The notes under the pieces were generated by a model that was not told where the DNA came from, ran no database searches, and saw only the letters and a list, made by a program, of their open reading frames with translations. From assembly GCF_000217715.1 (NCBI RefSeq), contig NC_015666.1, positions 2,802,270 through 2,866,269 of the forward strand: a stretch of DNA of 64,000 nt. Direction: 5' to 3'. The stretch comes from Halopiger xanaduensis SH-6. Lineage in GTDB: Archaea > Halobacteriota > Halobacteria > Halobacteriales > Natrialbaceae. Position 1 is the first letter of the stretch. Every line of letters begins with the position of its first letter. The translations under genes and the position numbers were made by a program. This document shows, piece after piece, positions 29,598-47,303 of the stretch.

Positions 29598-31235
29598 ATG
29601 TCTAGATCGGACCGTCAATCGTCCCGTCTCGACGCGGCTCGCGAGGCCGTCGTCGAACCCGATGCCGTCTCTCGGGACGATGTCTCCCGCGCGAAGGACC
29701 TCGCCGGCCTGCAGTCGGCCGACGAGCGCCGCCTCGAGTCGATGTCTCACCTGTTCGACGCCGTCAGCGACGAACTCGCTGCCGCGTCCGTCGATGCGGT
29801 CCGTTCCCAGTCGGATATCGATATCGGCGCGGCGCTCGAGCGGACCGGGTCCGACGAAGCCGCTCTCGAGCGAAGCCGACGCGAAGCCCTTGAGGGGGCT
29901 ACGGACGGCGAGTACGACGCCGACTTTTTCGACCGTCGGCTGCGCGGGGACGACGTGGCGGCGCTGCTGTCGGCCGGCCCCGACGTCTATCTCGGCTCGT
30001 TCGGCGTTCAGTACGAGCGGCTGTTCGAGGAGATCGCGGCCGATGTCGTGGCTCGCTACGAGGATGCGGACGACGGCACGTCCGACGACCGTGCAACCGA
30101 CGGCGGCGTCGCCGCCGCGCCCGCGACCGACAACGGGACCCTCGAGCGGGCGGTCGACGACGCCCTCAACCGGGCGCTGTCGGCCGTCCGACTGTCGATG
30201 GTCGACCAGCAACTCGCGCTGCGAGCGCGCTCGAGCGCCCAGGAGGCACGGATCGACGCCTACGAAGCGCAACTCGCGGAGTACGAGCAGCGACTCGAGG
30301 AGTACGAAGCTGAAATCGAAGCGCAGGACCGAACGCGGGAGGATCTCGCGGACGCGCGCCGGAGCATGGAGAACACGCTCGAGGAAGTCGCCGAAGCGAC
30401 CGACGACGTCGCGGACGGCGCCGACGAGATCGACGACCTCACCGCCGAACAGTCCGACTCGATGAGCGAAATCGCGAGCGAAATCTCCGGGCTCTCGGCG
30501 ACCGTCGAGGAGATCGCCTCGAACGCCGAGGAGGTCAGCGCGACCAGCGAACAGGCCGAATCGGTCGCGAGCGACACGACCGAGACCGCCGAGGAGGCCA
30601 TCGACAAGATGGAGGGCGTCCAGGAGGCGGCCGACGAGGTCACCGAGGACGTCGAGAACCTCCGCGAGGGCGTCCAGCGCATCGACGAGATCGTCGACGT
30701 CATCAACGACATCGCCGACCAGACCAACCTGCTCGCGCTGAACGCCTCGATCGAGGCCGCGACCGCCGGTGAGGCGGGCGACGGGTTCGCCGTGGTGGCC
30801 AATGAAGTCAAGAGCCTCGCCGAGGAATCCCAGGACGAAGCGACGAACATCGAACGCATGGTCGACCGGATTCAGGCCGACACCGAGGAAACCGTCGACA
30901 GCCTCGAGACGGCGAACGCGGAGATCGACGACGGCGTCGAGCTGGTCGAAGAGACCGTCGACAACCTCGGCCGGATCGAGGAGGCGGTCGCCGAAGCCAG
31001 TACCGGCATTCGCGAGGTCGCGACCGCGACCGACGATCAGGCTGCGAGCACCGAGGAGGTCGCGAGCATGACCGACAGCGCGATGGAACGATCGCAGGAG
31101 ATCGCCGACGAAGTCGAGACCATCGTCGCGACGACCGCGGACGCGAGCGACCTCGTCGAGGAAATCGACGCCGAGCTCGACCGACTCGAACTCGAGGACG
31201 GGACGGGCGTCGAAGCCGGAACCAATCGGAAGTGA
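29598..31235 (+). CDS. Soluble methyl-accepting taxis transducer with globin-like N-terminal domain (HemAT-like)
   Basis: 545 residues, no membrane segment. Residues about 38-215 follow the protoglobin pattern of HemAT aerotaxis sensors: [62 protein letters not shown]. In HemAT the haem-ligand His lies ten residues before the YLG-type aromatic; here that position is Ala121, so canonical haem binding looks lost. Residues about 215-545 are the cytoplasmic signalling coiled coil, with the conserved hairpin tip [38 protein letters not shown] that contacts CheA and CheW. It overlaps or closely precedes cheW, so the two are cotranscribed. Confidence 0.85.
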
Positions 31236-31240
31236 GCCAC

Positions 31241-31696
31241 ATGTCAACGACGAAATCGAACCGACCGACTGCGGACGAGGAGGACAGAACGAGCACCCAC
31301 GTGCTCGAGTTTAGCCTGGGCGAGAACCGCTACTGCGTCGACATCGGCTACGTGGCGGAGATCGTCGACACCAACCAGCTGACGGCGGTGCCGAACACGC
31401 CGGACCACGTCGAGGGCGTCATGGATCTGCGCGGCGAGACGACGAAGATCGTCAATCTTCGGCGGATCTTCGGCGAGACGGACGACGACTCGGCGATCGG
31501 CAACCGGATCATCGTCTTCAAGCGCAAGCGCGGCTCCAACGAGCGCATCGGCTGGCTCGCCGACGAAGTCTACCAGGTCGAGGAAGTCTGGACCGACACG
31601 GTCGACACCTCGGTCGACGGGGAAGGGATCGCCGGCGTCATCCGGCGAGACGACGAGTTCGTGTTCTGGATCGATCCGACCAGCGTTCGGATCTGA
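31241..31696 (+). CDS. cheW: Chemotaxis coupling protein CheW
   Basis: 151 residues from the ATG; a GTG at 31232, overlapping the transducer stop, would add three residues. Single CheW domain (HVLEFSLGENRYCVDIGYVAEIVDTNQLTAVPNTPDHVEGVMDLRGETTKIVNL), linking transducers to CheA. The core motif VMDLRGE is intact. Its position directly after the globin-type transducer suggests coexpression. It is a normal-sized CheW, unlike the long paralogue at 33760. Confidence 0.92.
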   Translation: MSTTKSNRPTADEEDRTSTHVLEFSLGENRYCVDIGYVAEIVDTNQLTAVPNTPDHVEGVMDLRGETTKIVNLRRIFGETDDDSAIGNRIIVFKRKRGSNERIGWLADEVYQVEEVWTDTVDTSVDGEGIAGVIRRDDEFVFWIDPTSVRI

Positions 31697-31818: not shown

Positions 31819-33504
31819 TTAGACGTCGTCGGTCTGTAACTCGTCGACTCGCGCCATGAGCGTCTCGATCGTCTGGTTCTGGTGATCGGTCGCCGCCACG
31901 ATCCGCTCGGCGGCCGCCTCGCTCTCGTCCGACCGGTCGCGGACGGTCTCCATCGTCGACGTGAGCTCCTCGATGCTGGCCGTCTGATCGTCGATCACCC
32001 GCGCGACTTCGGAGATACCGTTAGCCGCCTCGTCGACCGAGTCGGCGATGTCCTCGAGCGAGGTGAGCACGGCCTCGATCTGTTCGTCGGCGTGTTCGAT
32101 CCGCTCGTGGGACTGTTCGACGGCGTCGGTCGTGTCTTCCGACTGGGCCTGCAACTCGTCGAGGCTCTTCGTGATCTCCTCGGTGTGTTCCTGGGTCTCG
32201 TCGGCGAGTTTCTTGACCTGGTCGGCGACGACGGCGAACCCGTTGCCGCTCTCGCCGGCCCGCGCGGCTTCGATGTTCGCGTTGAGCGCCAGCAGATTCG
32301 TCTGGTCGGCGACGTCGGAGATGACCTCGACGACGTCCCCGATCTCGTTCATCTTCTCGGCTAAGGCGTCGACGCTCTCGCGGAGTTCGTCCCCGATCGC
32401 GACGACGTCTTCGGTCGCCTCGCGCGCGTCCTCGCCCGCGTCGAGGCCCTGCTCGACGGCTTCTCTCGCCGTCCGCGCCGCGGAGTCGACCTCGTCGGCC
32501 TGGGCCGCAACCTCCTCCATGCCCGCCGCGAACGACTGCATCTCGTCGACCGAGTCCTCGAGCAGCCCGTGCTGTTCGGTGACGTTCCCGGCGATCTCGT
32601 CGGCCGCGTCGTTCGCTTCGTCGACGGCCGAGCGCATCTCGGTCGCCTGCTCGGTGACCCGGCCGGTGAGCGTCTCTAAGTTGTCGGCCATCCCGTTGAC
32701 CGCGTCGACGACGTCGACTAGATCGTCGTCGAGCGCGTCGAAATCGTCGCTGCGCTCGGCGCGGGCGGTGAGGTCCCCGTCGCTGATCTCGTTTGCCGTC
32801 GTGCGAATCTCCTGGACCAGATCGACCGTCGCGTCCCGCTCGTTGACGATGTCGGTGCGGTCGATGACGACCTCGATGACGCCGATCAGATCGTCGCCGT
32901 CGTACAGCGGCGTCGCCGAAAAGTCGATGTGCTTCTCGTCGCCGTGGCGGTCGACCATCGTGCTGGTGTCGCCGTACCGATTCCGATCGGGATCGCGGTG
33001 CTCGACGCCGTACTCGAGGTGCGCGCGCTCGGGGGCCTGCAACACCTTGTCCGCGAGCGTGTCCGCGCGACGCCCGTCCGGGTAGAAGTGTTCCGAGGCG
33101 TGTTCGTGGCCGACCGCTTCGGTCCGGTCGACGCCGGTCAGTTCGGCCAGGGCCGCGTTCCACTCGACGATGGTGCCGTCGGCGTCCAGGATGAAGGTCG
33201 GGACGCCGGTGCCGTCGAACAGTTGCTGGTAGCCGGCGCGTCGCAGCGTCCCGGCATCGTTCACGGCGGCCGCGTCGGGCTCGCCATCCGTCCCGACTTC
33301 CTCGTCCCCCTCACCCGTCGCCGGTCGGTCGGCTGCGGCCGTCGTCGCCGGTCGATTGCCGCCGTCGGTCCGGTGCCGTCGGTTCGGTCGACGATCCCCG
33401 CGGTCGCCGCTCGCCGAACTTCCGTCGCGATCGCCGTTCCCTCCCGAGGAACTGTCAGTTTGTCGTCGTGATTCGGGCCGGTCGTTACTACCCATTCGGT
33501 CCAT
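31819..33504 (-). CDS. Soluble PAS-domain methyl-accepting taxis transducer with basic low-complexity N-terminus
   Basis: 561 residues, no membrane segment. Residues 1-85 are Arg/Gly/Ser/Asp-rich and probably disordered, unusually basic for a haloarchaeon. A PAS domain follows at about 90-220 (YQQLFDGTGVPTFILDADGTIVEWNAAL, then HIDFSATPLYDGDDLIGVIEVVIDRT), expected to sense a redox or small-molecule cue. A HAMP-like segment (about 235-285) connects to the signalling coiled coil with tip [37 protein letters not shown]. Divergent TATA box at 33535-33545. Sits beside the ParA-CheW pair. Confidence 0.9.
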   Translation of the reverse strand: MDRMGSNDRPESRRQTDSSSGGNGDRDGSSASGDRGDRRPNRRHRTDGGNRPATTAAADRPATGEGDEEVGTDGEPDAAAVNDAGTLRRAGYQQLFDGTGVPTFILDADGTIVEWNAALAELTGVDRTEAVGHEHASEHFYPDGRRADTLADKVLQAPERAHLEYGVEHRDPDRNRYGDTSTMVDRHGDEKHIDFSATPLYDGDDLIGVIEVVIDRTDIVNERDATVDLVQEIRTTANEISDGDLTARAERSDDFDALDDDLVDVVDAVNGMADNLETLTGRVTEQATEMRSAVDEANDAADEIAGNVTEQHGLLEDSVDEMQSFAAGMEEVAAQADEVDSAARTAREAVEQGLDAGEDAREATEDVVAIGDELRESVDALAEKMNEIGDVVEVISDVADQTNLLALNANIEAARAGESGNGFAVVADQVKKLADETQEHTEEITKSLDELQAQSEDTTDAVEQSHERIEHADEQIEAVLTSLEDIADSVDEAANGISEVARVIDDQTASIEELTSTMETVRDRSDESEAAAERIVAATDHQNQTIETLMARVDELQTDDV

Positions 33505-33759: not shown

Positions 33760-34968
33760 TCAGTTCCGGACGTAATCGCTCGGCGTGTACTCCGTCTCCG
33801 TGGTCTCGATCAGACTGTCGATATCGAGCCACGCGACCAGCGCCGTTCCGTCGTCGACGTTCTTCTTGATGATCCCCTCGACGAACTCGTGTTGGGCGTC
33901 CGTCCCGTCCATCACCGTCCCCGTCTCGTCGATCTGGGACTCGCGGTAGGTGACCGCCTGCGAAACGTCGGTCACGCGGATCCCGAGCTTCTGCTTGTCG
34001 CCGTCGCGCTCGATGACGACGATGTAGTGGTCCTCGGAGGGCTCGCTGCGTTCGACGTCGAGCATGACGGTCGGGTCGAGAACGCCCGTGATCTCGCCGC
34101 GGAGGTCGGTGACGCCGTCGATGGCTTTCGGTCCGCGGGGGAACCGGGTGATGTCTTTCATCTCGACGATCGCGCTGACCCGTCCGATCTCGATCGCGTA
34201 CCGGTTATCGTTGAGGTAGAACTCGAGCATCTGGACGGTGTCTTCCTCGTTGTGGGTCGACGCGATCAGCGAGTCGCCGCGGTCGAACACCTCCTCGCGG
34301 TCGGCCGCATCGCCGTACGTGTCGGCGTCCATGATGGCCGTCGAGTCGACGGTCGCTTCGCCGACGCGCTCGTCGACGGTGACCGTATCGGACATGCCGG
34401 CGATCGCACCCTGCAGCGACGCTTCACTCACGCCGTCAGTCGTCTCGGTGCCGGTCCCTGTTCCGGCGCCGATCCCTGTCGTCGCTGCGTTCCCGTTCGC
34501 GATCGCGGCGCCACCGGCGTCGGCCGCCGGTTCCGGTTCGGTCCGCTCCGCGGCGGTCTGCTCGAGCGGCTCCTCGGTCCCCGTCGTTTCGGTTTCGTCG
34601 TAGGAGAGCGCCTCGCCGTCGGCGTCGTCGGTCGTCGGTTCCGCCGTCGGCTGCTCCGCGTCGCCTCGATCCTGTTCCTGTCCCTTTCCCTGTTCCCGGT
34701 CCGCTTCGTCCGTCGCGTCCCGTTCGTCCCCGTCGTCCGTCCCTGCGGACGACTCGTTCGTTCCGGACGCGTCGTCGGGTTCCGACTCGACGTTCGATGT
34801 CGCCTCGTCCGAACCGGACCCGTCAGTCGCCGCGTCGGTCTCGGCCCCTGTCTCGGCCTCAACGTCGCTCTCGCTCTCGGCGTCGACTGTGCTATCGTCC
34901 GATTCGTCCGACTCTCCCTTCGATCGATTGCGGATGTCCCGAATCCGCCGCGCTCTGTCGTCGGTCAT
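33760..34968 (-). CDS. cheW: Long CheW: basic N-terminal peptide, about 220-residue acidic linker, C-terminal CheW domain
   Basis: 402 residues. The CheW domain occupies residues about 243-390 (DTVQMLEFYLNDNRYAIEIG, AIDGVTDLRGEITGVLDP), with DLRGE intact. The first 17 residues (DDRARRIRDIRNRSKG) are strongly basic. Residues 20-240 are Glu/Asp/Thr/Ala-rich and almost surely disordered. The ATG overlaps the parA stop (ATGA), so ParA and this CheW are translationally coupled. Short basic N-terminal peptides on a flexible tether are how ParB, TlpT and similar partners stimulate ParA ATPases; a link between array and ParA is inferred from this. Confidence 0.9.
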   Translation of the reverse strand: MTDDRARRIRDIRNRSKGESDESDDSTVDAESESDVEAETGAETDAATDGSGSDEATSNVESEPDDASGTNESSAGTDDGDERDATDEADREQGKGQEQDRGDAEQPTAEPTTDDADGEALSYDETETTGTEEPLEQTAAERTEPEPAADAGGAAIANGNAATTGIGAGTGTGTETTDGVSEASLQGAIAGMSDTVTVDERVGEATVDSTAIMDADTYGDAADREEVFDRGDSLIASTHNEEDTVQMLEFYLNDNRYAIEIGRVSAIVEMKDITRFPRGPKAIDGVTDLRGEITGVLDPTVMLDVERSEPSEDHYIVVIERDGDKQKLGIRVTDVSQAVTYRESQIDETGTVMDGTDAQHEFVEGIIKKNVDDGTALVAWLDIDSLIETTETEYTPSDYVRN

Positions 34969-35759
34969 GCCGACACCTCCTGGCGGCCGATCCGCTCGTC
35001 GAGGGTCTCGGCCATCGACTCGAACACCGCCTCCATGTCGACGTCCTCCTCGACCTCGAAGATCGACGTTCCCGCTTCGAACGCGCGCTGGAGCGCCACG
35101 CGCTTGCGCACTTCGAACAGCGGCACGTCCGGCAGCGCCTCGTCGAACCACTCGAGCATCTCGTCGGCCTGATTGGTGTACTCGACGCGGTTCGCGACCA
35201 GCGCGCGCGGCTCGATCTCGACGTCGTAGTCCATCTGGAGCGAGCCGACGTAGTCGAACAGCAACTCGAGCGAGCGCTTGCTCGTCGATTCGGCCAGCGC
35301 CGGAATCACGAGGTTTTTGGTCGCACAGAGGGCGTTGTCGGTGATCAGTCCGAGCTGCGGCGGGCAGTCGACGACGACGACGTCGTAGCCCCCCTCGCGC
35401 TCGAGGGCGGTCAGCAACGCGTCGAGTCGGTCTTCGCCGTCCGGCTGCTCGGCCAGGGTCGACTGGGCCGCGTTCATGTCGACGTTGCTCGCGAGCACGT
35501 CCATCTCCGGATGATCGTAGACGATCTCCTCGAGCGGGACGCCGGACGGGTCCACGAGCGCGTCGAGCAGCGTCGGCGGCTCGGCGTCGTAGGCGTCGAG
35601 CTGTCCGAGGCCCTCGGTCGCGTTGCCCTGCGGATCGAGATCGACGAAGAGCACGTCCCGTCCGCGTTCGTTCAACGCACCGGCGAGGTTGATCGCAACG
35701 GTCGTCTTTCCGACGCCTCCTTTCTGATTTGTCACACACAGCCGAGCGGATCCCGCCAT
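34965..35759 (-). CDS. parA: ParA family ATPase in the chemotaxis cluster
   Basis: 264 residues from the ATG at 35759. Deviant Walker A KGGVGKTTVAINLAGAL at about residues 12-28, switch I/Walker A' VDLDPQGNATEGLG at about 39-52, and Walker B VVVVDCPPQLG near residue 125. All ParA-specific residues are present, including the signature Lys. ParA proteins form ATP-dependent dimers on the nucleoid and move or space partner-bound cargo. The only partner gene next to it is the long CheW, suggesting the cargo is a chemosensory array rather than DNA; no parB or centromere-like repeat is adjacent. Confidence 0.93.
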   Translation of the reverse strand: MAGSARLCVTNQKGGVGKTTVAINLAGALNERGRDVLFVDLDPQGNATEGLGQLDAYDAEPPTLLDALVDPSGVPLEEIVYDHPEMDVLASNVDMNAAQSTLAEQPDGEDRLDALLTALEREGGYDVVVVDCPPQLGLITDNALCATKNLVIPALAESTSKRSLELLFDYVGSLQMDYDVEIEPRALVANRVEYTNQADEMLEWFDEALPDVPLFEVRKRVALQRAFEAGTSIFEVEEDVDMEAVFESMAETLDERIGRQEVSA

Positions 35760-35902: not shown

Positions 35903-35920
35903 CGGCCGAATTCTTTATGC
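35903..35920 (+). promoter_or_regulatory. Promoter with GGCCGAA element and TATA box upstream of the gene at 35944
   Basis: GGCCGAATTCTTTATGC: TTTAT is centred 28 bases before the ATG at 35944, and GGCCGAA occupies the BRE/upstream position. The same core precedes the TATA-like box at 60899-60915. Confidence 0.5.
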
Positions 35921-35943
35921 GGCGAACATCACAACCCAGTTCC

Positions 35944-36414
35944 ATGGCAGTGAACGTATCGACCGTCGACAATACCACACGCGCGTGTGTGGACGCTCGA
36001 GCGGACGGTCACGACGGCGGCCGTCTCGGCAGTTCGGCCGCCGTCGGACTCGAGGTCGGGTCGGAACCCGAACTCGAACCCGGACTCGAATCCGGACCCG
36101 ATCCCGGTGTCGAAGTCGGCGACGCCGACTTCGCCGCCGGTCGTCCGGCCGCGCTCGAGCGCGATCGAGCCGTCGACGGCGTCGATCCAGCTGCCAGGAT
36201 CGGCAACCGCTCCCGACGACCAGCTATGATAACCGCTCTCTCCACCAGCACCCCACGGCAGGATCGACCGCGACCCGCGACCGGCGTCGCCGACACCGGC
36301 GACACCGAGACCGACGGCATCAACGAACTCGCGACGCACAGCGAGGGCTCGCCGATGCCGTCCGCGACCGGGCCGATCGCACTCCGCCGACCGAGCCACA
36401 GTTCCGACCGCTGA
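35944..36414 (+). CDS. Unrecognised protein overlapping cheB
   Basis: 156 residues. No family recognised. Supported by a leaderless promoter ending at the ATG, by G/C-rich third codon positions, and by a TGATG stop/start overlap with cheB that would couple translation. The sequence is low-complexity: a Glu/Pro/Gly-rich segment (LEVGSEPELEPGLESGPDPG) at about 34-55 and an Arg/Pro/Thr-rich second half. A weaker minus-strand frame of equal length exists here; the promoter and overlap favour the plus strand. It could also serve mainly as a translated leader for cheB. Confidence 0.45.
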   Translation: MAVNVSTVDNTTRACVDARADGHDGGRLGSSAAVGLEVGSEPELEPGLESGPDPGVEVGDADFAAGRPAALERDRAVDGVDPAARIGNRSRRPAMITALSTSTPRQDRPRPATGVADTGDTETDGINELATHSEGSPMPSATGPIALRRPSHSSDR

Positions 36415-37496
36415 TGGTCCGAGCCGTTATCGCCGACGATTCTGCGGTCATGCGCGAAACCCTCGGGAAGATCCTCGAGGACGGCGGCGTCGAGGTCGTC
36501 GGCCGCGCCAAGAACGGCACCGAGGCGGTCGCGATGATCGGCCGCCTCGAGCCCGACGTGGCGACGATCGACATTCAGATGCCCGGGCTGACGGGCCACG
36601 AGGTGATCGAGCGGGTGATGGCCGACAACCCGACGCCGATGCTGGTCATCAGTTCGCAGACGACGAAAAACGCCGACGCGACGTTCGACGCGCTCGAGGC
36701 CGGCGCGGTCGACTTCATCGCGAAGCCGTCGGGCGACAACTCGGTCGACATCTGGTCGAAACAGGACGAGATCGTCGAACAGGTCGAAGCGGTTGCGAGC
36801 GCCGACGTATCGAAAGCGACGGAGTCGAACCGTAACACGAGTACCGGCACCGGGAGCGGGGCCAGCGCCGCCGGCGCCGGCTCGACGATCGACGTCGCCG
36901 CGGAGTTTCCGAACGACCCGACGCTGGTCATCGGCGCGTCGACCGGCGGCCCGCGCGTCGTCGAGCAGGTTCTCTCCGAACTTCCCGAGCGAGCAGGGTT
37001 ACGAATTCTGGTAGTTCAACACATGGCAGATCACTACACGGAGCGTTTTGCGAAACGCCTCAACGACCGAACAGCGTACGACATTCGAGAAGCGACCGGG
37101 AGCGACACGATCGGGCCCGGCGAGGCCGTGCTGGCGAAGGGCGGCAAACACATGGCGGTCACCGGCTGGCGCAACGGCCGGGTCACCGTCGAACACGACG
37201 ACGGCCCGAAGCGCCACAACGTCAAGCCGGCCATCGACGTCACCATGGAGACCGCGGCCGAGACGGTCCGGGGCAACCTCGCCGGCGTCATCATGACCGG
37301 CATGGGCGCCGACGGCGCCGAAGGTCTGGGCGCGATCAAGGCGGCCGGCGGCAAGGCGATCGTTCAGGACGAGGCGACCTCCCGCGTCTACGGGATGCCG
37401 AAGGTTGCCGCTGAACAGGTCGACGTCGACATGGTGCTGCCGAAAGGTCGGCTCGCCGAAGGCGTCGTCAACGCCTTCCGGGGGTGGTCCGCGTGA
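36414..37496 (+). CDS. cheB: Chemotaxis response regulator protein-glutamate methylesterase CheB
   Basis: 360 residues. Removes methyl groups from transducers (and deamidates Gln) to allow adaptation. The receiver domain (residues 1-120) has the acidic pair DD at 8-9, phospho-Asp in TIDIQMPGL near residue 53, and the Lys in FIAKPSG. A Thr/Gly/Ala-rich linker joins the esterase domain, with catalytic Ser in GASTGGP (near 183), His in VVQHMADHY, and Asp in MTGMGADGAEGL. The final GTGA overlaps the cheA start, so cheB-cheA is an operon. CheR, the opposing methyltransferase, is not in the window. Confidence 0.96.
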   Translation: MVRAVIADDSAVMRETLGKILEDGGVEVVGRAKNGTEAVAMIGRLEPDVATIDIQMPGLTGHEVIERVMADNPTPMLVISSQTTKNADATFDALEAGAVDFIAKPSGDNSVDIWSKQDEIVEQVEAVASADVSKATESNRNTSTGTGSGASAAGAGSTIDVAAEFPNDPTLVIGASTGGPRVVEQVLSELPERAGLRILVVQHMADHYTERFAKRLNDRTAYDIREATGSDTIGPGEAVLAKGGKHMAVTGWRNGRVTVEHDDGPKRHNVKPAIDVTMETAAETVRGNLAGVIMTGMGADGAEGLGAIKAAGGKAIVQDEATSRVYGMPKVAAEQVDVDMVLPKGRLAEGVVNAFRGWSA

Positions 37497-39499
37497 GCGA
37501 CGCGACCAGCACCTTCGTCCAGGAGAGCCAGGAGGACATCCGGAAATTAAACAACGCCCTGCTTGACCTCGAGGACGACCCCGAAAGCTCCGACGCCATC
37601 GAGACGGTGTTCCGGGTCGCGCACAACCTCAAGGGCAACTTCGGCGTGATGGGCTACACGAAGGCGAGCAACATGGCCCACGCGATCGAGGACCTGCTCG
37701 ACTGCATCCGGGACGGCGAACTCGCGGTCACGCCCGAGCGGATGGACCTCATCTTCGAGGGCGTCGACCACCTCGAGGCGATGGTCAACGAGATCTCCGA
37801 CGACGGGGAGACTCACACGAACCCGGAGGCGACGATCGAGGAGATCCGCGCGTCGCTCGAGGCGGGAGCGAACGAAAGCGAGGACGCCGCCGACGCTGAC
37901 GCCGACGAAAGCGCGAGCGACGACGGCGACGCGAATGCCGACGTGGCCGACGCGCACGACGTCCCCCTCGAGGAGCTAGCCGAGGCCGTCGACCTCGAGG
38001 ACGACGAGGAACTCTTCCGGGCGTCCGTCAGCATCGACAACGACGACTCGCCCCACGTCGACGCGATGTTCGTCCTCGACGCGACCGAAGACGAGTACGA
38101 CGTCGTCCGGATGGTCCCCGAGGACGACGTGCTCGAGTCCGAGGAGTTCGGCGGCGTGCTCGACGCGTACCTGCGCACGGGAGACGCCGTCGGAAGCGAC
38201 GACGTCGCCGGCTTCTACGACGAGAACCGGTACGTCGGCGACGTCGCGGTCGAGGCGCTCGGCGACGACCTCGCCGCGGACGCCGATTCCGACGCGGACG
38301 ACACAGCAAGCGAAGACGACGACAGTGGTCGCAGCACCGGCGGTTCCCACGGCTCCCAGGAAGTCGAATCCATCCGCGTCGACGTCGAGCAGATCGACCA
38401 GCTCTACAACCAGGTCGAGGAGATGGTCACCAGCCGGATCAAGCTCCGGAAGATCATCGAGGAGCACGACCTCGTCGAAGCCGAGGACGAACTCGAGGAA
38501 CACGGCAAGATCACCTCGAGCCTGCAGGATACGGTGCTGCAGATCCGCCTCGTTCCGCTGAAGAAGATCGTCGGGAACTTCCCGCGGGTCGTCCGCGACA
38601 TCTCCCGCGATCAGGGCAAGGAGATCGACTTCGAGATGGAGGGCGTCGACATCGAGATGGACCGCTCGATCCTCAACGAACTGAGCGATCCGCTGATGCA
38701 CCTCATCCGGAACGCGGTCGACCACGGCATCGAGTCCCCGGAGGAGCGCGAGAAGAAGGGCAAACCCCGCGAAGGATCGATCAAACTCGTCGGGGAGCGC
38801 GAGCGCGACCGCGTCTCGATCACCGTCGAAGACGACGGCGCCGGACTCGACGTCGAACGCATCCGCGAGAAGGCGGTCGAGAAGGGGATCAAGACCGAGG
38901 AGGAAGTGAAGGTTCTCGACGATTCCGAGGTGTTCGACCTCATCTTCCATCCGGGCTTCTCGACCACCGAAGAGGTCACCGAGGTCAGCGGCCGCGGCGT
39001 CGGGATGGACGTGGTCAATCAGGTCGTCCGCGGCGTCGACGGCTCGATCAATGTCGAGAGCGAACCGGACGAGGGGACGGCTATCACGCTCACGCTGCCG
39101 GTCAGCGTCGCCATCGTCCGCGTGCTGTTCGTCACCGTCGGCGACGAGCAGTACGGCGTGCCGATCAAGAACATCGACGAGATCTCCGAGTTCGAGGACG
39201 TGACCGTCGAGTCCGTCGAAGGCCGGCCCGCGATCACGCACGACGACCGCGTCTACCCGCTGCTCTCGCTTCGCGACCACCTCGACGTCCCGGAGGCCGC
39301 CCCCTCCGAGGACGACATGGTCATCCGGATCAAGGACACCGTCAGGCAGGTCTACCTGCGCTGCTCCGACGTCGTCGGTCAGGAAGAGGTCGTCATCAAA
39401 CCGTTCGAGGGCCTCCTGAGCGGCGCGCCCGGTATCAGCGGCGCCTCCGTCCTCGGCGAGGGCGAGGTCGTGATGATTCTGGACGTCGAAACGCTGTAG
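37493..39499 (+). CDS. cheA: Chemotaxis histidine kinase CheA
   Basis: 668 residues from the GTG that overlaps the cheB stop; another in-frame GTG lies nine bases upstream. HPt domain with phospho-site His44 (RVAHNLKGNFG). An acidic linker and a regulatory-like P2 region span about 165-265. The dimerisation helices (about 285-345) precede the ATPase domain, with N box HLIRNAVDHGIE, G1 DDGAGLD and G2 GRGVGMDVV. A C-terminal CheW-like domain binds the array. All catalytic parts are intact. Phosphorylates CheY and CheB. Confidence 0.96.
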   Translation: MSDATSTFVQESQEDIRKLNNALLDLEDDPESSDAIETVFRVAHNLKGNFGVMGYTKASNMAHAIEDLLDCIRDGELAVTPERMDLIFEGVDHLEAMVNEISDDGETHTNPEATIEEIRASLEAGANESEDAADADADESASDDGDANADVADAHDVPLEELAEAVDLEDDEELFRASVSIDNDDSPHVDAMFVLDATEDEYDVVRMVPEDDVLESEEFGGVLDAYLRTGDAVGSDDVAGFYDENRYVGDVAVEALGDDLAADADSDADDTASEDDDSGRSTGGSHGSQEVESIRVDVEQIDQLYNQVEEMVTSRIKLRKIIEEHDLVEAEDELEEHGKITSSLQDTVLQIRLVPLKKIVGNFPRVVRDISRDQGKEIDFEMEGVDIEMDRSILNELSDPLMHLIRNAVDHGIESPEEREKKGKPREGSIKLVGERERDRVSITVEDDGAGLDVERIREKAVEKGIKTEEEVKVLDDSEVFDLIFHPGFSTTEEVTEVSGRGVGMDVVNQVVRGVDGSINVESEPDEGTAITLTLPVSVAIVRVLFVTVGDEQYGVPIKNIDEISEFEDVTVESVEGRPAITHDDRVYPLLSLRDHLDVPEAAPSEDDMVIRIKDTVRQVYLRCSDVVGQEEVVIKPFEGLLSGAPGISGASVLGEGEVVMILDVETL

Positions 39500-39797: not shown

Positions 39798-40154
39798 ATG
39801 GACGTGCTGATTACAGACGATTCTGGGTTCATGCGGGATCTCCTCCGTGAAATCCTCGAGGAAGACCACAACATCGTCGGGGAAGCCGAAAACGGCGTCG
39901 AAGCCGTCGAACTCTATCAGGAAGAATCGCCGGACATCGTCTTTATGGACATCGTCATGCCGATCAAGGACGGAATCGAGGCGACCGACGAGATCACGGA
40001 CATGGATCCGGACGCGAAGGTCGTCATGTGCACCAGCGTCGAGCAGGCCGAGCAGATGAAAGACTCGATCAAGGCCGGCGCCGAGGGTTACATCACGAAA
40101 CCCTTCCAGAAGGAAAGCGTGCTCGAGGAACTCAACAGCATCGTCGCCGGGTAA
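39798..40154 (+). CDS. cheY: Chemotaxis response regulator CheY
   Basis: 118 residues, a single receiver domain. Acidic pair Asp7-Asp8 (VLITDDSG), phosphorylation site Asp51 (VFMDIVMP), switch Thr in VVMCTSVEQ, and Lys in YITKPF are all present. In haloarchaea phospho-CheY acts on the archaellum through CheF. A six-base gap to cheC makes the two an operon. Confidence 0.97.
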   Translation: MDVLITDDSGFMRDLLREILEEDHNIVGEAENGVEAVELYQEESPDIVFMDIVMPIKDGIEATDEITDMDPDAKVVMCTSVEQAEQMKDSIKAGAEGYITKPFQKESVLEELNSIVAG

Positions 40155-40160
40155 CTCGCC

Positions 40161-41375
40161 ATGGAAATCGACATTCGAGAACTCGAGACCTTTCAGGAGC
40201 TCGCCCACGACGGCGCACAGTCGGCCGCCGACTCTCTCGCACAGTTGACGGGGATCAGCACGAACGTTCAGGTGACCAACGTCTCGCTGATGTCCGCGTC
40301 GGACCTGCAGTACGAATTCATCGGCACCGAGTTCGCCGGCGTCAACATCGATCTGAGCGGCGAAATTTCGGGCGAGGTTGTCCTCGCGTTCGACGAACGG
40401 GGTCGGCGCGCGATCACCGACGAACTCGTTCCCGCCGACGACCCCGAGAAGAAAAAGAGCAGCATCAAGGAAGTCGGAAATATCATGTCCAGCGGGTTCG
40501 TCGACGGCTGGGCGAACTACCTGAACGCCAAGATCAAGAACTCGCCGCCGGACTACATCGAGGGGACCGGCGTCGACGTCTTACCCAAGTCGGCGACGGA
40601 GGAGGACACCCACCTCCTCGTGTTCCGCAGCCGCGTCGAAGCCTCGCAGGGCGAGGTCAACGAACCCGTCGACTTCCGCATTCTACTCGTTCCCGACTCG
40701 ACCTCGCTCGAGCGCGCGCTTACGCCCCGCGCCGAGGACGGCATCTCCTTCGAGAAGCTCGAGGTCTTCACGGATATGACCAAGGAGGGCGCCGAGAAGG
40801 CGGCGGCGAACATCACCTCGATGACCGGCATCGACACGAACGTCAACGTCAGCCGGCTGACGCTGGTGCCGATCGAGGACATCCCGCGCGAGGTCGGCAA
40901 CAAGCGCTACGTCGGCAACGTCATGGAGTTCGAGGGGAAACTCGGCGGCTACCTCGTGATCCTGTTCGACCAGCCCTCCGGACGGGCGGTCGTCGACTCG
41001 CTGGTGCCGATGGAGACCGACGAACAGTGGGGCAGCATGGAACAGGAGGCGCTCAAGGAACTGGGCAACATCATGACCAGCGGCTTCATCGACGGCTGGG
41101 CGAACGTCTTAGACGCCGAGATCAAACACAAGCCGCCGGAGTTCGTCGCCGACACCGGCTCCTCGATCATGAGCCCGATCACGTCGAAGATCGCCGAGAC
41201 CGACGATCACGCGTTCATGCTCGACTCGAGCATCCAGACCGACAGCGATCAGGTGTTCACCTGCCAGATGCTCGCCCTACCGCGGCGGGACGAACTCGAG
41301 CAGGCGCTATCGGATCTGCTCGTCGAGAACTCGGAGAATACGCGCATCGATCCCGCCGACCTGTTCGATCGGTAA
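40161..41375 (+). CDS. cheC: Two-domain CheC-family CheY phosphatase
   Basis: 404 residues with an internal duplication. Each half carries the CheC-type active-site helix: EVGNIMSSGFVDGWANYLNAKI at about 109-130 and ELGNIMTSGFIDGWANVLDAEI at about 297-318, each with the acid and Asn expected for phosphatase activity. CheC-type proteins dephosphorylate CheY-P and contribute to adaptation. The partner CheD is not seen in the window. Cotranscribed with cheY. Confidence 0.93.
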   Translation: MEIDIRELETFQELAHDGAQSAADSLAQLTGISTNVQVTNVSLMSASDLQYEFIGTEFAGVNIDLSGEISGEVVLAFDERGRRAITDELVPADDPEKKKSSIKEVGNIMSSGFVDGWANYLNAKIKNSPPDYIEGTGVDVLPKSATEEDTHLLVFRSRVEASQGEVNEPVDFRILLVPDSTSLERALTPRAEDGISFEKLEVFTDMTKEGAEKAAANITSMTGIDTNVNVSRLTLVPIEDIPREVGNKRYVGNVMEFEGKLGGYLVILFDQPSGRAVVDSLVPMETDEQWGSMEQEALKELGNIMTSGFIDGWANVLDAEIKHKPPEFVADTGSSIMSPITSKIAETDDHAFMLDSSIQTDSDQVFTCQMLALPRRDELEQALSDLLVENSENTRIDPADLFDR

Positions 41376-41586: not shown

Positions 41587-42495
41587 CTACCGATCTAACT
41601 GGTCGAGCGTTCCGCCCGCGTTGACGTCCTCGATCCGCTCGCTGACGATGATCCGTCCCTTCGCCGTCAGCGACATCTCGTTGCCGTTCTCGACGATCAG
41701 TCCCTTCTTCTGGACCGAGTTGAGGACGTTCGTCACGTAGGTCGGATCGCCGTCTAACATGTTGGTGAAGTCGATGTCGCCGCCGGTCGCGTGGATCCCG
41801 ACCAGGACCCGCTTTTCGGGGTTCGAGAGCTCGAGGTCCGCGACCTCCTCCCGAAGTTCGTCGAACTCGAGGCGGAGGAACCGGGCGAGCAGGTTCACGT
41901 ACTGACTCTTCGAGGGGGCGATCAGCGACGTCTGTGTGAGTCCGGAGCCGCGGTCGATGTGTTTGACGACCAGCGTCACGCGGTCGTCGCTCTCGCCGAT
42001 CTTGTTGGTTCGATCGATCTCCATGACGGTCTCGACGTCGAAGCTGAAGGTGCCGGCCTTCGAGCGGACCTCGATCCGCCGGTCGTCGATGCCGATCTTC
42101 CCGGGGACGACGGAGGTGTCCTTGACGCGGCCGCCGACGCGGGCCGGGTGGCGGACGGCGGCTTTCCGACCGTCCAGCAGGCAGCGAAACAGCAGCGAGA
42201 CGAACTCCTCGACGGACTCGCCGCGGCTCTCGATGACCGCGCTGCGGGTCCCCTCGTCGGTCTTGTAGCCGATCGTCACCGTATCGTCGAAGAACTGCCT
42301 GACGTGACTCGGGACGGTGCCGACGTTGACGTCGACGACCCGCGAGAGCGGAATCGTCTTCTTCTCGTCCTCGGTCACGAGTACGACCCGTTTCTCGGTC
42401 GTAATGATCCGCCCGGTAAACGGCGTCCCATCCCCCGTACCGCCGCGATTGAAAAAGAACCGCCCCGTGAAATCGGCGACGACGTCCTCAGTCAT
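41587..42495 (-). CDS. cheF2: Archaeal taxis protein CheF (DUF439), second paralogue
   Basis: 302 residues. CheF proteins link CheY to the archaellum in haloarchaea. N-terminal beta-rich half (GRIITTEKRVVLVTEDEKKTIPLSRVVDVNVG) resembles a PH-like fold; the middle repeats this theme (VVPGKIGIDDRRIEVRSKAGTFSFDVETVMEIDR). The C-terminal 90 residues are a winged-helix-like domain (LELSNPEKRVLVGIHATGGDIDFTNMLDGDPTYVTNVLNSVQKKGLI). Number assigned by context only. Convergent with cheC. It probably has its own promoter (ACCTAAATGC, minus strand, about 42524-42533). Confidence 0.88.
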   Translation of the reverse strand: MTEDVVADFTGRFFFNRGGTGDGTPFTGRIITTEKRVVLVTEDEKKTIPLSRVVDVNVGTVPSHVRQFFDDTVTIGYKTDEGTRSAVIESRGESVEEFVSLLFRCLLDGRKAAVRHPARVGGRVKDTSVVPGKIGIDDRRIEVRSKAGTFSFDVETVMEIDRTNKIGESDDRVTLVVKHIDRGSGLTQTSLIAPSKSQYVNLLARFLRLEFDELREEVADLELSNPEKRVLVGIHATGGDIDFTNMLDGDPTYVTNVLNSVQKKGLIVENGNEMSLTAKGRIIVSERIEDVNAGGTLDQLDR

Positions 42496-42587
42496 ACGCT
42501 CCCATCTATCGTGAATTGTCTTAGCATTTAGGTATCGCCGTCGGTGCCGTTACCGCAGGTCCGTCTCCGTCGGTCGCGGTCGCGTCG

Positions 42588-44261
42588 TTAGTCCGGCCGC
42601 GTGATGTGGAACGGCAGCCCTTCGACGCCGTCGCGCTGGAACGACTCGATCGCCGAGTTGACCTCGTGGTACTCGAGGATGTTCTCCTGGATCATCCGCT
42701 CGATGATGTCGGCGCGGAACCGCAGGTCGTCGTAGATGTCCCGGGTCTCCGCATAGCCCAGCAGGGTCGCGATCTGGTCCTCGAGCACGTAGGAGTTGTT
42801 CATCCCCTGGAAGACGATCTCGTCCTCGACGGGGTCCCAGTAGAACACCTGCCGGGTGACGACCCCGTCCATCTGCTCGGAGTAGCCCTCGATCTCCTGG
42901 ACCGAGGTCACGCGACGCAGGACGTCGTCGCCCTGCTTGACGCGGTTCTGGAACAGCGCCACGTCGGCGTTGTCCATGAACGTCTCGGGGACGTTGATCG
43001 GGTCCCCGGTAAACCGCTGGATCATTGAGACGATGTCGCTCGCGTGGAAGGTCAGCATGACCGGGTGGCCGGTCTGGGCCGCCTGGAAGGCCATGCGACC
43101 CTCCTCACCACGAACCTCACCCACGACGATGTACTCGGGGCGGGAACGAAGCGCGGCCTCGACCAGTTTGAACATGTCGACGTCGACGCTGTCCTCGCTC
43201 TGGCTCTCGCGCGTGAGCAGCTGCTGCCACGTGTTGTGGGGCGGCAGCACCTCGGCGGTGTCCTCCGCGGTGTAGATCTTCGAGTCCCGCGGAATGAACG
43301 ACATGATGGAGTTCAGCGTCGTCGTCTTCCCCGACGCCGTCTCCCCGACGACGAACACCGTCTGCTCGTTCTCGAGACAGAGCCACAGGTACGCGGCCAG
43401 TTCGGGCGAGAGCGTCCCCCAGTTGGTAATCTGCGTCACTGAAAGGGGGACCTCGTCGCCCTGACGGATCGTGAGGCTGGGCCCCTTCACGCTCACGTCG
43501 TCGCTGTAAATGACGTTCAGACGCGAGCCGTCGGGCAGCGTCGAGTCGACGATCGGCTCCGCGTCGGTCATCGGGTTGCCGATCCGCTCGCCCATGTTCG
43601 AGAGCCAGCGGTCGAACGCCTCCCGCGTCCCGAAGTCGACCGACGTCTCGACCATCCCGAACACGCCGTGATCGACGTAACACTCGTTGGGGCCGATCAC
43701 GTGAATGTCCTCGTTCTCCGGGTCGCGCATGATCGGCTCGAGCGGTCCCAGTCCGACGATATCCCGATTCAGGCGGTAGCGGATGTTCTCGTAGGTCTCC
43801 TGTGGAACTTCTTCGATGCCGGGGTGGAACCGAACCTTCAGCTCCTCGAGGAGGTTGTCCGTCTCCTCGCCCTTGATGTGGGTCGTCTCCTGGAGCAACT
43901 CTTCGATCCGGTCGTCGTACTCGGCGTCTTTCTCCGGCGCCTTCTTGGTCGCGCTGCGGCGAAGCAAGGAGTCTTTGACGCTCTCGAAGACCTCCTGCTC
44001 TTCCTCGGAGAGCGTCGGCTCGACGGCGAAGTACTGCATCTTCGTCCCGATGTCGCCGTAGACGTGACTGTAAATCGGACCGCCGACCGGGTAGATGACG
44101 TTCGGGTGTGCGACCTCGTGTTCGGCCGTCGGCTCGTCGATCAACATCGGGAACTCGCCGGTGATCTGTCGGAACTTCTTCAAGTGCTCGCGGAGGTGCG
44201 GGCGACGCGCCGCTATCTCCTGAAGCTCGTCCGACGGCTTCGGCGTCCCCATTTCCGTCAT
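42588..44261 (-). CDS. arlI: Archaellum motor ATPase ArlI (FlaI)
   Basis: 557 residues. Type II/IV secretion-family hexameric ATPase that powers archaellum assembly and rotation. N-terminal region to about 270, then the RecA-like core: Walker A GETASGKTTTL near residue 310, Asp box YTAEDTAEV, Walker B VVGEVRGEEG near 370, and His box GHPVMLTFHASD. Length is typical of haloarchaeal forms. It starts 15 bases after arlH and ends the leftward archaellum transcript. Confidence 0.95.
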   Translation of the reverse strand: MTEMGTPKPSDELQEIAARRPHLREHLKKFRQITGEFPMLIDEPTAEHEVAHPNVIYPVGGPIYSHVYGDIGTKMQYFAVEPTLSEEEQEVFESVKDSLLRRSATKKAPEKDAEYDDRIEELLQETTHIKGEETDNLLEELKVRFHPGIEEVPQETYENIRYRLNRDIVGLGPLEPIMRDPENEDIHVIGPNECYVDHGVFGMVETSVDFGTREAFDRWLSNMGERIGNPMTDAEPIVDSTLPDGSRLNVIYSDDVSVKGPSLTIRQGDEVPLSVTQITNWGTLSPELAAYLWLCLENEQTVFVVGETASGKTTTLNSIMSFIPRDSKIYTAEDTAEVLPPHNTWQQLLTRESQSEDSVDVDMFKLVEAALRSRPEYIVVGEVRGEEGRMAFQAAQTGHPVMLTFHASDIVSMIQRFTGDPINVPETFMDNADVALFQNRVKQGDDVLRRVTSVQEIEGYSEQMDGVVTRQVFYWDPVEDEIVFQGMNNSYVLEDQIATLLGYAETRDIYDDLRFRADIIERMIQENILEYHEVNSAIESFQRDGVEGLPFHITRPD

Positions 44262-44276
44262 GCGGCGACCACCGTC

Positions 44277-45035
44277 TTAGGCGACGCTCCGGTTCTCGAT
44301 GACGATTCCGGTTCCGGACCGGACCGAGTAGCCGACCCGGTCGCCGACCTGTTCGCCCATCCCCGCGAAGCGCTTGATGAACAGCTGGCGGCGGATGTCG
44401 TTCCCGACTTCGATCATCTCGAGTTCGATGAACACGTCGGCGATCGATCGGAACGGGCCGATCGCTTCCTCGCCGACCGTCGAGGGGTCGACCGTCAGCA
44501 CGACGACCTTCCCCTGGGAGATGATATCGCGGAGGAACGAGATGATCTCGAGGGCGGCCTGGCGCTCCTCGTTTTGCCGGACCAGCGCCTCGAACTTCGG
44601 ATCGTTACGGAGGATCGCGTCGAAGGTATCGATGATTACGATGTCGGCGGACCACAGGGTCTCTTCCTCCATCAGATCCGTCAGCAGATCCTGACGGTTG
44701 TCTTCCTCGGTGGTCGAGGAAAGCACGCCCCCGCTGTCCAGATCGCCGTGGAGGAACAACATGTTCTCGAACAGGAGGTGTTCCTCGACGTTGTAGTTCA
44801 GCGAGTCCATCTGGTCGATAAAGCCCTGTACCTCGAGTTCCGTCGAGAGGAACGTAACCGACTTGCCCGTCTGGCACAGTCCGTAGGCGAACCGTTGGGA
44901 GATCGCGCTTTTGCCGGCCCCGTAGTCGCCTTCCATGAGAACGATACTGCCGGTCGGAATGCCGCCGCCGAGTTCCTTGTTGAGGCGGTCGCGGTCGTCC
45001 AACCCGATAGAGAAGATATTGTTACGCTTACTCAT
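44277..45035 (-). CDS. arlH: Archaellum protein ArlH (FlaH)
   Basis: 252 residues. RecA-fold, KaiC-like ATP-binding protein that sits with ArlI and ArlJ in the motor. Walker A EGDYGAGKSAISQ at about 35-47, Walker B IVIIDTFDAIL near residue 133, no sign of a catalytic Glu motif typical of active ATPases. ATP binding, rather than turnover, is thought to regulate its partner. Six bases after arlCE. Confidence 0.94.
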   Translation of the reverse strand: MSKRNNIFSIGLDDRDRLNKELGGGIPTGSIVLMEGDYGAGKSAISQRFAYGLCQTGKSVTFLSTELEVQGFIDQMDSLNYNVEEHLLFENMLFLHGDLDSGGVLSSTTEEDNRQDLLTDLMEEETLWSADIVIIDTFDAILRNDPKFEALVRQNEERQAALEIISFLRDIISQGKVVVLTVDPSTVGEEAIGPFRSIADVFIELEMIEVGNDIRRQLFIKRFAGMGEQVGDRVGYSVRSGTGIVIENRSVA

Positions 45036-45041
45036 AGTGCA

Positions 45042-47303
45042 TCAGCTCCGGTCCGTCTCGTCGTCGTGGACGAGGAGCAACTGGACGGGTTCGATCGTCA
45101 GGTTGCCCTCTTCGTCCGGGATAAACAGCGGTTTGAGCGAGTCGTCTCCGTCCTGCTCCGCCGTCTCGGCGTCCGCCCCTCGAGCGTAGCCGCCCGTGTT
45201 GTAGAGGTCGGCGCCGGCCTCCGAGAGCACGACGTCCGAGTCGACCCAGATCATCTGGCCGTTGTCAGTAAAGTCGTCGTCGACGCGGTTCTCGCGGAGG
45301 ACGGTCGCGTTGGTGCTGTCCGTCCAGACGGCGTCCGTTTCAGTTGCGGCGTCCGGTGCGGTCTCTCGCGTTCGATCCGCGTCGGCGCTCGAGGCCGCGT
45401 TCGCGTCGTCCTCCGATCCCGACTCGTCGATGAGGATCTTCTGGGCGCCGTTGGTGTCGGTCTCCGTCTCGTCGCGGTCGATGTCGACGTGCTCGAACGT
45501 CGTCCCACCGGACTCGTCGTCGGCACCCTGCTCGGATTCGTTCGCGTACGCGTCTGCGGCCGCGGTCGTGTCCGCGTCGTCAGCACTCGCGTCGGCACCG
45601 TCGGTCGCCGGCTCGTCGACGTCGTCGACGGCGGTGTAGACGAGTTCTTCGCCCGAGTCGCCGTCTGCATCGGCTTCATCGTCAGCATCGTCGGCCCCGT
45701 CGGTCTCGAGGTCGTCGGTCGCGTCCTCGGGGCCCTCGATATCGATCGAGAGTTCGTCGTCCTCGGGCACGTCCGCGTCAGCCTCCGGGACGTCGCCCGC
45801 AGCGCCGTTCAGGCCCTCCTGGGCCAGCCACTCGTCGAACGGTTTCCGTTCCTTCTCCGGCGTTTTGATCTGACTGATCCGCCAGAGACTGCGCTTGTGG
45901 TTGACGCCGAGCGCCGACCGCGGCTCCGGATCCTCGACGTCCGGCCCGCCGCCGAACCCGTTCAGCGTCGTCTGAAGGTGGGCTTCGACCGGCGAACTCA
46001 CCCACCGGATCGACTCGTAGAACTTGATGGTCCGCGCGGCGCCGTTGAGCCCCGCTTCGCTCACGAGGTAGTCCAGCCAGTCCATCACGACGAACTGGGT
46101 GTCGTACTCCGAGGGGATCGACTCGAGGTACGGTCGGCCGCCGTCGTCCCAGGCGATATCGCCCGCGGGCGCGGCGCCCGCCGATTCGTCCTCGAGGTCG
46201 TCGACCGTCGCGGCCGGTTCGGTTTCGGCGGTGGCGGTACCGGTATCGGCAGCGTCCTCGGCGAAGGGGTCGTCCGCTGCGTCCTCGTCGGCACCGTCGT
46301 CGAATCCGAGGTCGGCGTCTTCCTCGTCCGCCTCCGCGAACGGGTCCTCGGGCTCGCCGGCATCGTCAGCACCGCCGTCGTCCGCGTCGCCTTCGTCCCA
46401 GTTGGCGTCGCCGGACTCGTACTCGGATTTCAGTTCGTCGAACGAGAGGTCCCCGTCGGCCGAGTCGGAGTCAGAACTCGTGTCGGCGTCGTCTCCATCG
46501 TCGAGTTCGAAGTCGTCGTCACCGCCCTCGTCCATGTCGTCGAACTCGTCGTCCATCCCGACGTCGTCGAACTCGAGGTCCTCCTCGTCGTCCGTGTCGT
46601 CCATGCCGTCGTCGAGGAAGTCCTCGGCTTCGGCGTTCGCGATATCGTCGTCGATCTCCTCGTCTTCCTCGTCCTCGACGTCGCTGTCGAACAGGCTCTC
46701 GTCGCCGAAGTTACCCGTCCCCTGGGCGCCTCCGCCCCCGCTGCCGTGCTCGAAGGAGTCGCTCAGCGAGTCGCCCTCGACGAACGGGTTCACGCCCTGC
46801 GTCACCATCTCGTAGACTTCCAGCAGCTTGCGAATGTCCTCTTCGATCTCCTCGAGGGAGTCGCTGATCTTCTCGTTCTCGCTCTGGACGGTGTTGACCG
46901 TTGAAGAAAGCGAGCCGACGTTGTTTTCGATCTCCTCGACGCGGGACTCGAGTTCGCTGGAGGGGCCGTCGTCGCCTTCGCCGCCGTCCATGCCGTCGAG
47001 CGACATCTCGCCGTCCATATCCATGCCGTCCATCCCGCCGTCGTCGCTGAGCAGGTCGTCGTCACCGCCCATGTCGTCCATGTCGTCCATCCCGCCCATG
47101 CCGCCGTTGCTGCCGTCGGCGAGGATATCGTCGTCGTCGCCGGCGTTCGAGTTGTTCGTGCCGGGCATCAGCCCCTCGTCGCTCGTGCTTCCCGAGAGGT
47201 CGCCGCCCATGAGGTCGTTCCCACCGTCGGAACCGCCGTCGTTCCCGTCGGTGTTTTGCCCGTCGCCGTCGCCGAGTAGATTCCCGATTATGGACAATAG
47301 CAT
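45042..47303 (-). CDS. arlCE: Fused archaellum switch protein ArlCE (FlaCE), very long
   Basis: 753 residues. The N-terminal 120 residues are Gly/Asp-rich, then the ArlC-type coiled coil (SRVEEIENNVGSLSSTVNTV to about residue 180), then an acidic disordered stretch. The ArlD/E domain is at about 390-485 (FVVMDWLDYLVSEAGLNGAARTI, YESIRWVSSPVEAHLQ, HKRSLWRISQIK). A second acidic linker (490-650) leads to a conserved-looking C-terminal block (LKPLFIPDEEGNLTIEPVQLLLV). ArlC/D/E proteins form the switch complex that receives CheY/CheF input. Longer than typical because of the linkers. Confidence 0.9.
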   Translation of the reverse strand: MLLSIIGNLLGDGDGQNTDGNDGGSDGGNDLMGGDLSGSTSDEGLMPGTNNSNAGDDDDILADGSNGGMGGMDDMDDMGGDDDLLSDDGGMDGMDMDGEMSLDGMDGGEGDDGPSSELESRVEEIENNVGSLSSTVNTVQSENEKISDSLEEIEEDIRKLLEVYEMVTQGVNPFVEGDSLSDSFEHGSGGGGAQGTGNFGDESLFDSDVEDEEDEEIDDDIANAEAEDFLDDGMDDTDDEEDLEFDDVGMDDEFDDMDEGGDDDFELDDGDDADTSSDSDSADGDLSFDELKSEYESGDANWDEGDADDGGADDAGEPEDPFAEADEEDADLGFDDGADEDAADDPFAEDAADTGTATAETEPAATVDDLEDESAGAAPAGDIAWDDGGRPYLESIPSEYDTQFVVMDWLDYLVSEAGLNGAARTIKFYESIRWVSSPVEAHLQTTLNGFGGGPDVEDPEPRSALGVNHKRSLWRISQIKTPEKERKPFDEWLAQEGLNGAAGDVPEADADVPEDDELSIDIEGPEDATDDLETDGADDADDEADADGDSGEELVYTAVDDVDEPATDGADASADDADTTAAADAYANESEQGADDESGGTTFEHVDIDRDETETDTNGAQKILIDESGSEDDANAASSADADRTRETAPDAATETDAVWTDSTNATVLRENRVDDDFTDNGQMIWVDSDVVLSEAGADLYNTGGYARGADAETAEQDGDDSLKPLFIPDEEGNLTIEPVQLLLVHDDETDRS

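Follow-up and report, generated by a model that had tools for sequence, protein, structure and literature searches.

What is a Soj-like ParA ATPase doing in a haloarchaeal chemotaxis region, directly ahead of a CheW with a long N-terminal tail? Such a pair is encoded in the window, by which we mean the whole stretch of 64,000 nucleotides analysed from Halopiger xanaduensis SH-6. A first-pass annotation, made without database searches, had proposed that the ParA spaces or segregates chemosensory arrays by pulling on the CheW. The reading developed below is that the pair is likely a dedicated chemosensory-array positioning module built from a haloarchaeal plasmid partition module, with the positioning itself inferred and no experiment behind it. 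The features of the pair are these:

35759-34965, minus strand: parA, encoding a Soj/plasmid-type ParA ATPase of 264 aa; first gene of the pair
34968-33760, minus strand: long-tailed cheW, encoding 402 aa; second gene of the pair
34965-34968, minus strand: ATGA stop/start overlap of parA and cheW
34915-34968, minus strand: basic N-terminal peptide of CheW, residues 1-18 MTDDRARRIRDIRNRSKG; presumed to contact ParA and activate its ATPase
34249-34914, minus strand: acidic low-complexity linker of CheW, residues 19-240; net charge -57, fast-evolving
33802-34233, minus strand: CheW domain (PF01584), residues 246-389; array-binding cargo domain

The gene structure is established. The ATPase carries a deviant Walker A motif, KGGVGKTT, and is Soj-like. 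It matches Pfam AAA_31 at 133 bits, plus CbiA, and the solved chains nearest to it are ParA/Soj. Against the NCBIfam model minD_arch it scores 49 bits, far below the cut-off of 201.75, and no MinD-type membrane tail was found on it, the C-terminus (DERIGRQEVSA) being judged non-amphipathic by eye. Residues 1-18 of the CheW are 39% K/R, with a net charge of +4, and the linker is 29% D/E and 4% K/R. The C-terminal domain matches PF01584 at 81 bits over residues 246-389 and aligns with Thermotoga maritima CheW (1k0s, 4jpb) with the hydrophobic groove positions conserved; the T. maritima receptor-groove residues L14/V27/I30/V33, positions named in PMC5706961, are L/I/V/I in the window protein. The tailed CheW thus carries a genuine, canonical CheW domain. 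The first-pass annotation had described the ATGA overlap and the three-part CheW, and both descriptions held, with the coordinates right and only the minus strand left unstated. 

The pair sits inside a chemotaxis/archaellum region. Around it are genes for CheW1, CheB, CheA, CheY, CheC, CheF and two transducers, together with archaellum genes (type A denotes the window's kind of pair and its orthologues):

31232-31696, plus strand: untailed cheW (CheW1), ordinary array adaptor with PF01584 and no basic peptide; internal control
31819-33504, minus strand: soluble PAS methyl-accepting transducer, downstream of the pair
36414-37496, plus strand: cheB, divergent from parA; order kept in type-A relatives
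37649-39499, plus strand: cheA; chemotaxis context
39798-41375, plus strand: cheY and cheC; chemotaxis context
41587-47303, minus strand: cheF and three archaellum-type genes (T2SSE ATPase, KaiC-like ATPase, FlaC/FlaDE protein)

The Halopiger genome has six CheW matches, split between this locus and a second che cluster. That cluster (L155; G000:C3:1862000-1881900) encodes CheY, CheB, CheA, CheC and two divergent CheWs, and has no ParA. A 165-aa open frame at 35917-36414 on the plus strand, between the divergent parA and cheB, has no Pfam match; it is probably not a gene, in which case parA and cheB share a long upstream region.

The type-A pair is conserved as a unit. Its ParA has an orthologue (E<=1e-100) in 32 of 125 Natrialbaceae genomes, and the tailed CheW directly follows parA in every locus with a readable downstream gene, a count that leaves out one truncated, unreadable locus. 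The ATGA overlap is retained in 29 of 29 pairs. The genomes were sampled one per species, some of them incomplete; the chromosomes of Hbt. salinarum and Hfx. volcanii lay outside the genomes read directly, and the family assignment of the relatives (Natrialbaceae, Haloarculaceae, Haloferacaceae, Haladaptataceae) is inferred. The CheW N-terminus follows the pattern (M/V)(T/S)D(D/E)RA(R/E/K)R(I/L)(R/K)... Among 25 divergent orthologues, mean pairwise identity is 78% over residues 1-16, falls to 14% over linker residues 17-150 and 36% over residues 151-239, and is 75% in the CheW domain. A short peptide so strongly conserved ahead of a freely drifting linker implies selection on the peptide. The conservation of peptide and overlap is a direct observation, and so is the co-occurrence of the pair with the chemotaxis system: 34 Natrialbaceae genomes have at least five CheW domains, all 32 type-A genomes are among them, and none is among the other 91 (counted by hand from two lists). 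One exception of the two is G413, where a related CheW lies by the che genes with no adjacent ParA; we regard this locus as a natural control in which the pair was lost or never gained. The G413 CheW (L152:9549-10277, minus strand) is only 242 aa long and lacks the basic peptide. Neither a tail nor an adjacent ParA was found for the CheWs of 12 genomes from other families. Halobacterium CheW2 was considered as a possible orthologue and set aside, the two Halobacterium-like genomes with a CheW having no tail or adjacent parA; Hbt. salinarum itself was not among them.

The origin of the pair is indicated by its nearest relatives outside chemotaxis loci. The nearest other ParAs to type A, and to the type B described below, are on plasmids or other contigs of Halomarina, Haladaptatus, Hbt. 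salinarum (pHS4) and Haloglomus, at 49-62% identity. Most of these plasmid-type parA genes have an overlapping partner of 97-224 aa, with an N-terminus of the type DRAxR(I/L/M)RxxR (for example MTDDRAQRMRRRRQ, MSDDRADRLRKNRNQVKNR and MSDERASRLRSRRG) and an acidic linker, and the ATGA overlap itself recurs in most of the plasmid pairs. The C-terminal domain of the partner is not CheW. It is about 70 aa long, carries YLP...KNRHFYP, and is predicted to be helical with moderate confidence. The partners match no Pfam family at its cut-off and are annotated as hypothetical, and no PDB match was found for the C-terminal fold; a ribbon-helix-helix fold is possible but would be a mere guess. We think it likely that this small overlapping family is the haloarchaeal plasmid partition partner, an inference from gene arrangement in which DNA binding is assumed. 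The family is widespread on haloarchaeal plasmids (e.g., L150:3792-4181, L151:1755-2168 and L249:927-1382), its domain being marked by YLP..KNRHFYP or KHWDFY after the basic peptide and acidic linker. A haloarchaeal-type plasmid parA-partner pair, at 50% identity, also appears on contig L171 (4001-5060), labelled as a Candidatus Bipolaricaulota MAG; the contig is probably a mis-binned haloarchaeal plasmid. No tailed CheW was found on plasmids.

The homology between the CheW peptide and the plasmid partner peptides is shown by a position matrix trained on 12 plasmid ParA-partner N-termini only, with no CheWs included. The window CheW scores 16.9 bits on it. Among 1,400 background ORFs, six reach that score, of which four are plasmid partners already read and two look like partners; the best of the rest reaches 13.5. 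Scores of type-A CheWs range from 7.1 to 22.4, so some orthologues do not rise above the best background, while CheW1 and the G413 CheW score at background level. In BLASTP, the window CheW matches a Haloquadratum partner at its N-terminus with E=1e-4. The homology ties the peptide to ParA rather than to DNA or CheA. The soluble PAS transducer has an Arg-rich low-complexity N-terminus that recalls FrzCD; the N-termini of its two nearest orthologues are short and different. The first-pass annotation had mentioned this basic N-terminus alongside that of the CheW, and that part failed: as a second ParA substrate the transducer was rejected, its N-terminus scoring -1.2 (background) and being absent in the two nearest orthologues.

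Two further kinds of pair were found. Type-B ParA, about 50-58% identical to the window ParA and bearing an insertion of about 33 aa, is present in 83 of 148 Haloarculaceae genomes and in one genus of Haloferacaceae. Every type-B locus read in these two families has parA and then a tailed CheW; the count of 83 is for the ParA, and the CheW partner is confirmed only in the examined loci. Named carriers are Haloarcula vallismortis, Har. mannanilytica, Halorientalis regularis and Salinibaculum sp. KK48. In Haloarculaceae the CheW begins with M(S/T)DD..RMDRAERIRxMREG or a close variant. Across type B, the ATGA overlap is retained in 23 of 26 pairs, and identity is 74% in the peptide, 17-27% in the linker and 68% in the CheW domain, which is closer to ordinary CheW1. 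The type-B peptides are less basic, with a mean net charge of -0.75 over residues 1-24; since they are not net basic over that span, the motif and not the charge must matter. The type-B insertion is also present in the ParAs of two plasmid-type relatives, L077 and L080, and the partners of both (MGRADRIRNTREGRR and IERAERVRRLRDGE, respectively) show the matching type-B peptide variant; the L077 partner is ParB-like. Type C occurs in one Natrialbaceae genus, where it was read in three genomes, and its ParA is only about 35% identical to that of the window. The CheW after it has a distinct conserved N-terminus, (F)EDQLSDVG.R.REK....KKAEKLGVSP. The type-C ParA is 77-79% identical to the ParA of Halocatena salina plasmid NZ_CP096022, and residues 7-43 of the CheW match the overlapping "hypothetical protein" of that plasmid at 26 of 37 positions (70%, E=7e-15). 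Outside those residues the two proteins do not align. We take this match as direct evidence, inferred from sequence alone, that a plasmid ParA partner swapped its C-terminal domain for CheW, or the reverse.

The sequence-level checks that the first-pass annotation had named came out in its favor. Adjacency of parA and cheW in haloarchaeal genomes is widespread in two families, and the basic CheW N-terminus is kept where the linker is not, while CheWs not adjacent to ParA lack it. A separate observation is that parA in the type-B and type-C loci has a gene of the archaellum FlaD/E type (PF04659) directly upstream (L037:3499-3981, minus strand, also L039, L040, L081 and L084; L153:13670-14944, minus strand), accompanied by FlaC (PF05377) in type C. 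This gene could possibly tie ParA to placement of the archaellum as well as of arrays.

How often did the change of partner occur, and in which direction? Types A and B fall into two separate clades in the maximum-likelihood ParA tree, with plasmid-type ParAs between them, and each CheW-linked ParA clade adjoins or falls among haloarchaeal plasmid ParAs. A single clade of types A and B is rejected (AU p=0.0086; 8e-6 without long branches). Once type C is included, the tree shows three changes of partner type, and a single clade of all CheW-linked ParAs is rejected at AU p=3.6e-49. Trees of the CheW domain, which are weakly resolved, leave the separate origin of the A and B tails unsettled on their own (AU p 0.17, 0.13 and 0.046). 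At least three independent exchanges between the partner C-terminal domain and a CheW domain are shown. Counts of partner changes alone cannot tell gain from loss, so the direction is only likely; repeated gain of CheW is favored because the plasmid-type partner is plasmid-borne and widespread. Plasmid partition modules were, then, probably re-aimed at arrays at least three times independently, a CheW domain replacing the C-terminal, presumably DNA-binding, domain of the partner while the cognate peptide was kept. The contact with ParA and the positioning remain inferences in this statement.

A mechanism can be proposed on this basis. The tailed CheW would dock into arrays through its CheW domain, placing many copies of the peptide on each array, and the long acidic linker would extend the basic peptides outward and give them reach. 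The peptide would bind ATP-ParA dimers on a positioning surface, most likely the nucleoid because the ParA is Soj-like and has no MinD-type membrane tail. It would stimulate ATP hydrolysis and local release of ParA, and the resulting ParA gradient would move, space or share out the arrays before division. For ParB homologues, MinE and PomX, N-terminal peptides of 20-52 residues are by themselves enough to activate the respective ParA/MinD ATPase (PMC7993993), and the homology of the CheW peptide to those of the plasmid partners leads us to expect that it should activate its own ParA likewise. A counterpoint is that the partition role of the plasmid partner is itself inferred from gene arrangement alone. 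The peptide-ParA contact, the activation of the ATPase, the nucleoid as matrix and the positioning in the cell are all inferred from sequence alone. The original proposal of ParA pulling on CheW is in that sense supported: every sequence-level prediction was met, and positioning in vivo is an inference.

Other readings of the pair can be weighed against this one. The most serious is that the tailed CheW anchors arrays at a pole, or at another landmark, that is marked by ParA, without any travelling gradient, on the model of ParC-ParP in Vibrio. ParP, which shares this architecture, tethers arrays to ParC at the pole (PMC5706961), the arrays of Haloferax are found mainly at the poles (PMC6509185), and the FlaD/E-type gene adjoins parA in types B and C. 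However, this ParA lineage derives from plasmid partition and not from the ParC clade, and Pfam matches at the window locus reveal no recognisable polar landmark gene beside parA. We judge a polar tether unlikely. Less plausible still is direct DNA binding by the basic tail, which would fix arrays to the nucleoid and leave ParA as a mere regulator. There is a precedent in the basic N-terminus of the Myxococcus chemoreceptor FrzCD (PMC5716589), and the window peptide has 7 R/K in 18 residues. But FrzCD tails keep only their charge while their sequence varies (PMC5716589), whereas the sequence of the CheW peptide is kept, the peptide type tracks the ParA clade, residues 1-24 of the type-B tails are not net basic, and CheWs without an adjacent ParA also lack the peptide.

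A signalling role, in which ParA sequesters and releases the tailed CheW to tune CheA activity without any positional function, seems equally hard to sustain. In its favor, CheW2 of Hbt. salinarum binds transducers and not CheA (PMC3579733), and the window also encodes the ordinary CheW1. Against it, the described ParA/MinD ATPases with partners that bear a basic N-terminal peptide are positioning systems (PMC7993993, PMC10241942), and among the Halobacterium-like CheWs sampled, none has a tail or a neighbouring parA. Finally, the two genes might be chance neighbours, brought together when a plasmid parA integrated ahead of a cheW whose acidic tail is unrelated. Acidic low-complexity tails are common in haloarchaeal proteins. 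This is all but excluded by the three separate origins, the conserved overlap, and a peptide that each type retains and that is homologous to those of plasmid partners.

No earlier report of an archaeal parA-cheW pair was found in the open-access literature searched; for bacteria, a 2010 survey had reported that many che operons contain a PpfA homologue (PMC2829493). Among bacterial systems, ParC-ParP (Vibrio; Halothiobacillus Hn0722/Hn0723) comes closest (PMC5706961). There too a ParA-like ATPase is followed by its partner in a chemotaxis locus, the Halothiobacillus ParC overlapping the gene of its CheW-type partner (PMC10241942), and ParP runs from an N-terminal part that binds the ATPase, through a long linker, to a CheW-like domain at the C-terminus (PMC5706961, PMC10241942). 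Three gammaproteobacterial pairs that we recovered show this plan. The haloarchaeal tail differs in being an Arg-rich peptide common to plasmid partners, unlike the N-terminal sequences of the three bacterial partners, and the ParP-AIF domain is nearer to CheA-P5 (PMC5706961) whereas the window protein has a canonical CheW domain. Kinship with bacterial ParC by horizontal transfer was considered and rejected; a tree branch with 100/100 support separates bacterial ParC/Soj from the haloarchaeal ParAs. By analogy, then, the archaeal pairs would work like ParC-ParP without being members of that system, with array positioning and recruitment inferred. The first-pass annotation had instead drawn its parallel with PpfA-TlpT of Rhodobacter, which partly held. 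PpfA is likewise a ParA homologue in a che operon, is activated through the N-terminus of its partner, and segregates arrays over the nucleoid (as summarised in PMC5706961), but the partner is the chemoreceptor TlpT and not a CheW.

With the haloarchaeal plasmid pairs, the window pair shares a homologous ParA, the ATGA overlap, a homologous N-terminal peptide and an acidic linker, and it differs in having a CheW domain where the plasmid partner has a helical C-terminal domain of about 70 aa. Set against ParA partition systems generally, it has the homology to plasmid ParAs and the basic N-terminal peptide (as sequence only, contact with ParA being inferred), but it has a CheW domain in place of a DNA- or centromere-binding domain in the partner. 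The acquisition of new cargo by ParA/MinD motors is usually argued from architecture alone. Here the intermediates coexist, a plasmid ParA with a plasmid-type partner and a chromosomal ParA with the same peptide on a CheW, three times over, and they offer a natural way of testing whether a short N-terminal peptide is enough for ParA to take on new cargo. A point against the positioning reading comes from Haloferax volcanii, whose arrays are positioned with MinD2 and MinD4, two ATPases of the ParA/MinD superfamily with an effect on array position (PMC11588486); array placement in haloarchaea is thus possible without a parA-cheW pair. The window ParA is not a MinD, and archaea would thus have, in addition, a dedicated non-MinD array-positioning system, present in culturable genera such as Haloarcula and Natrialba.
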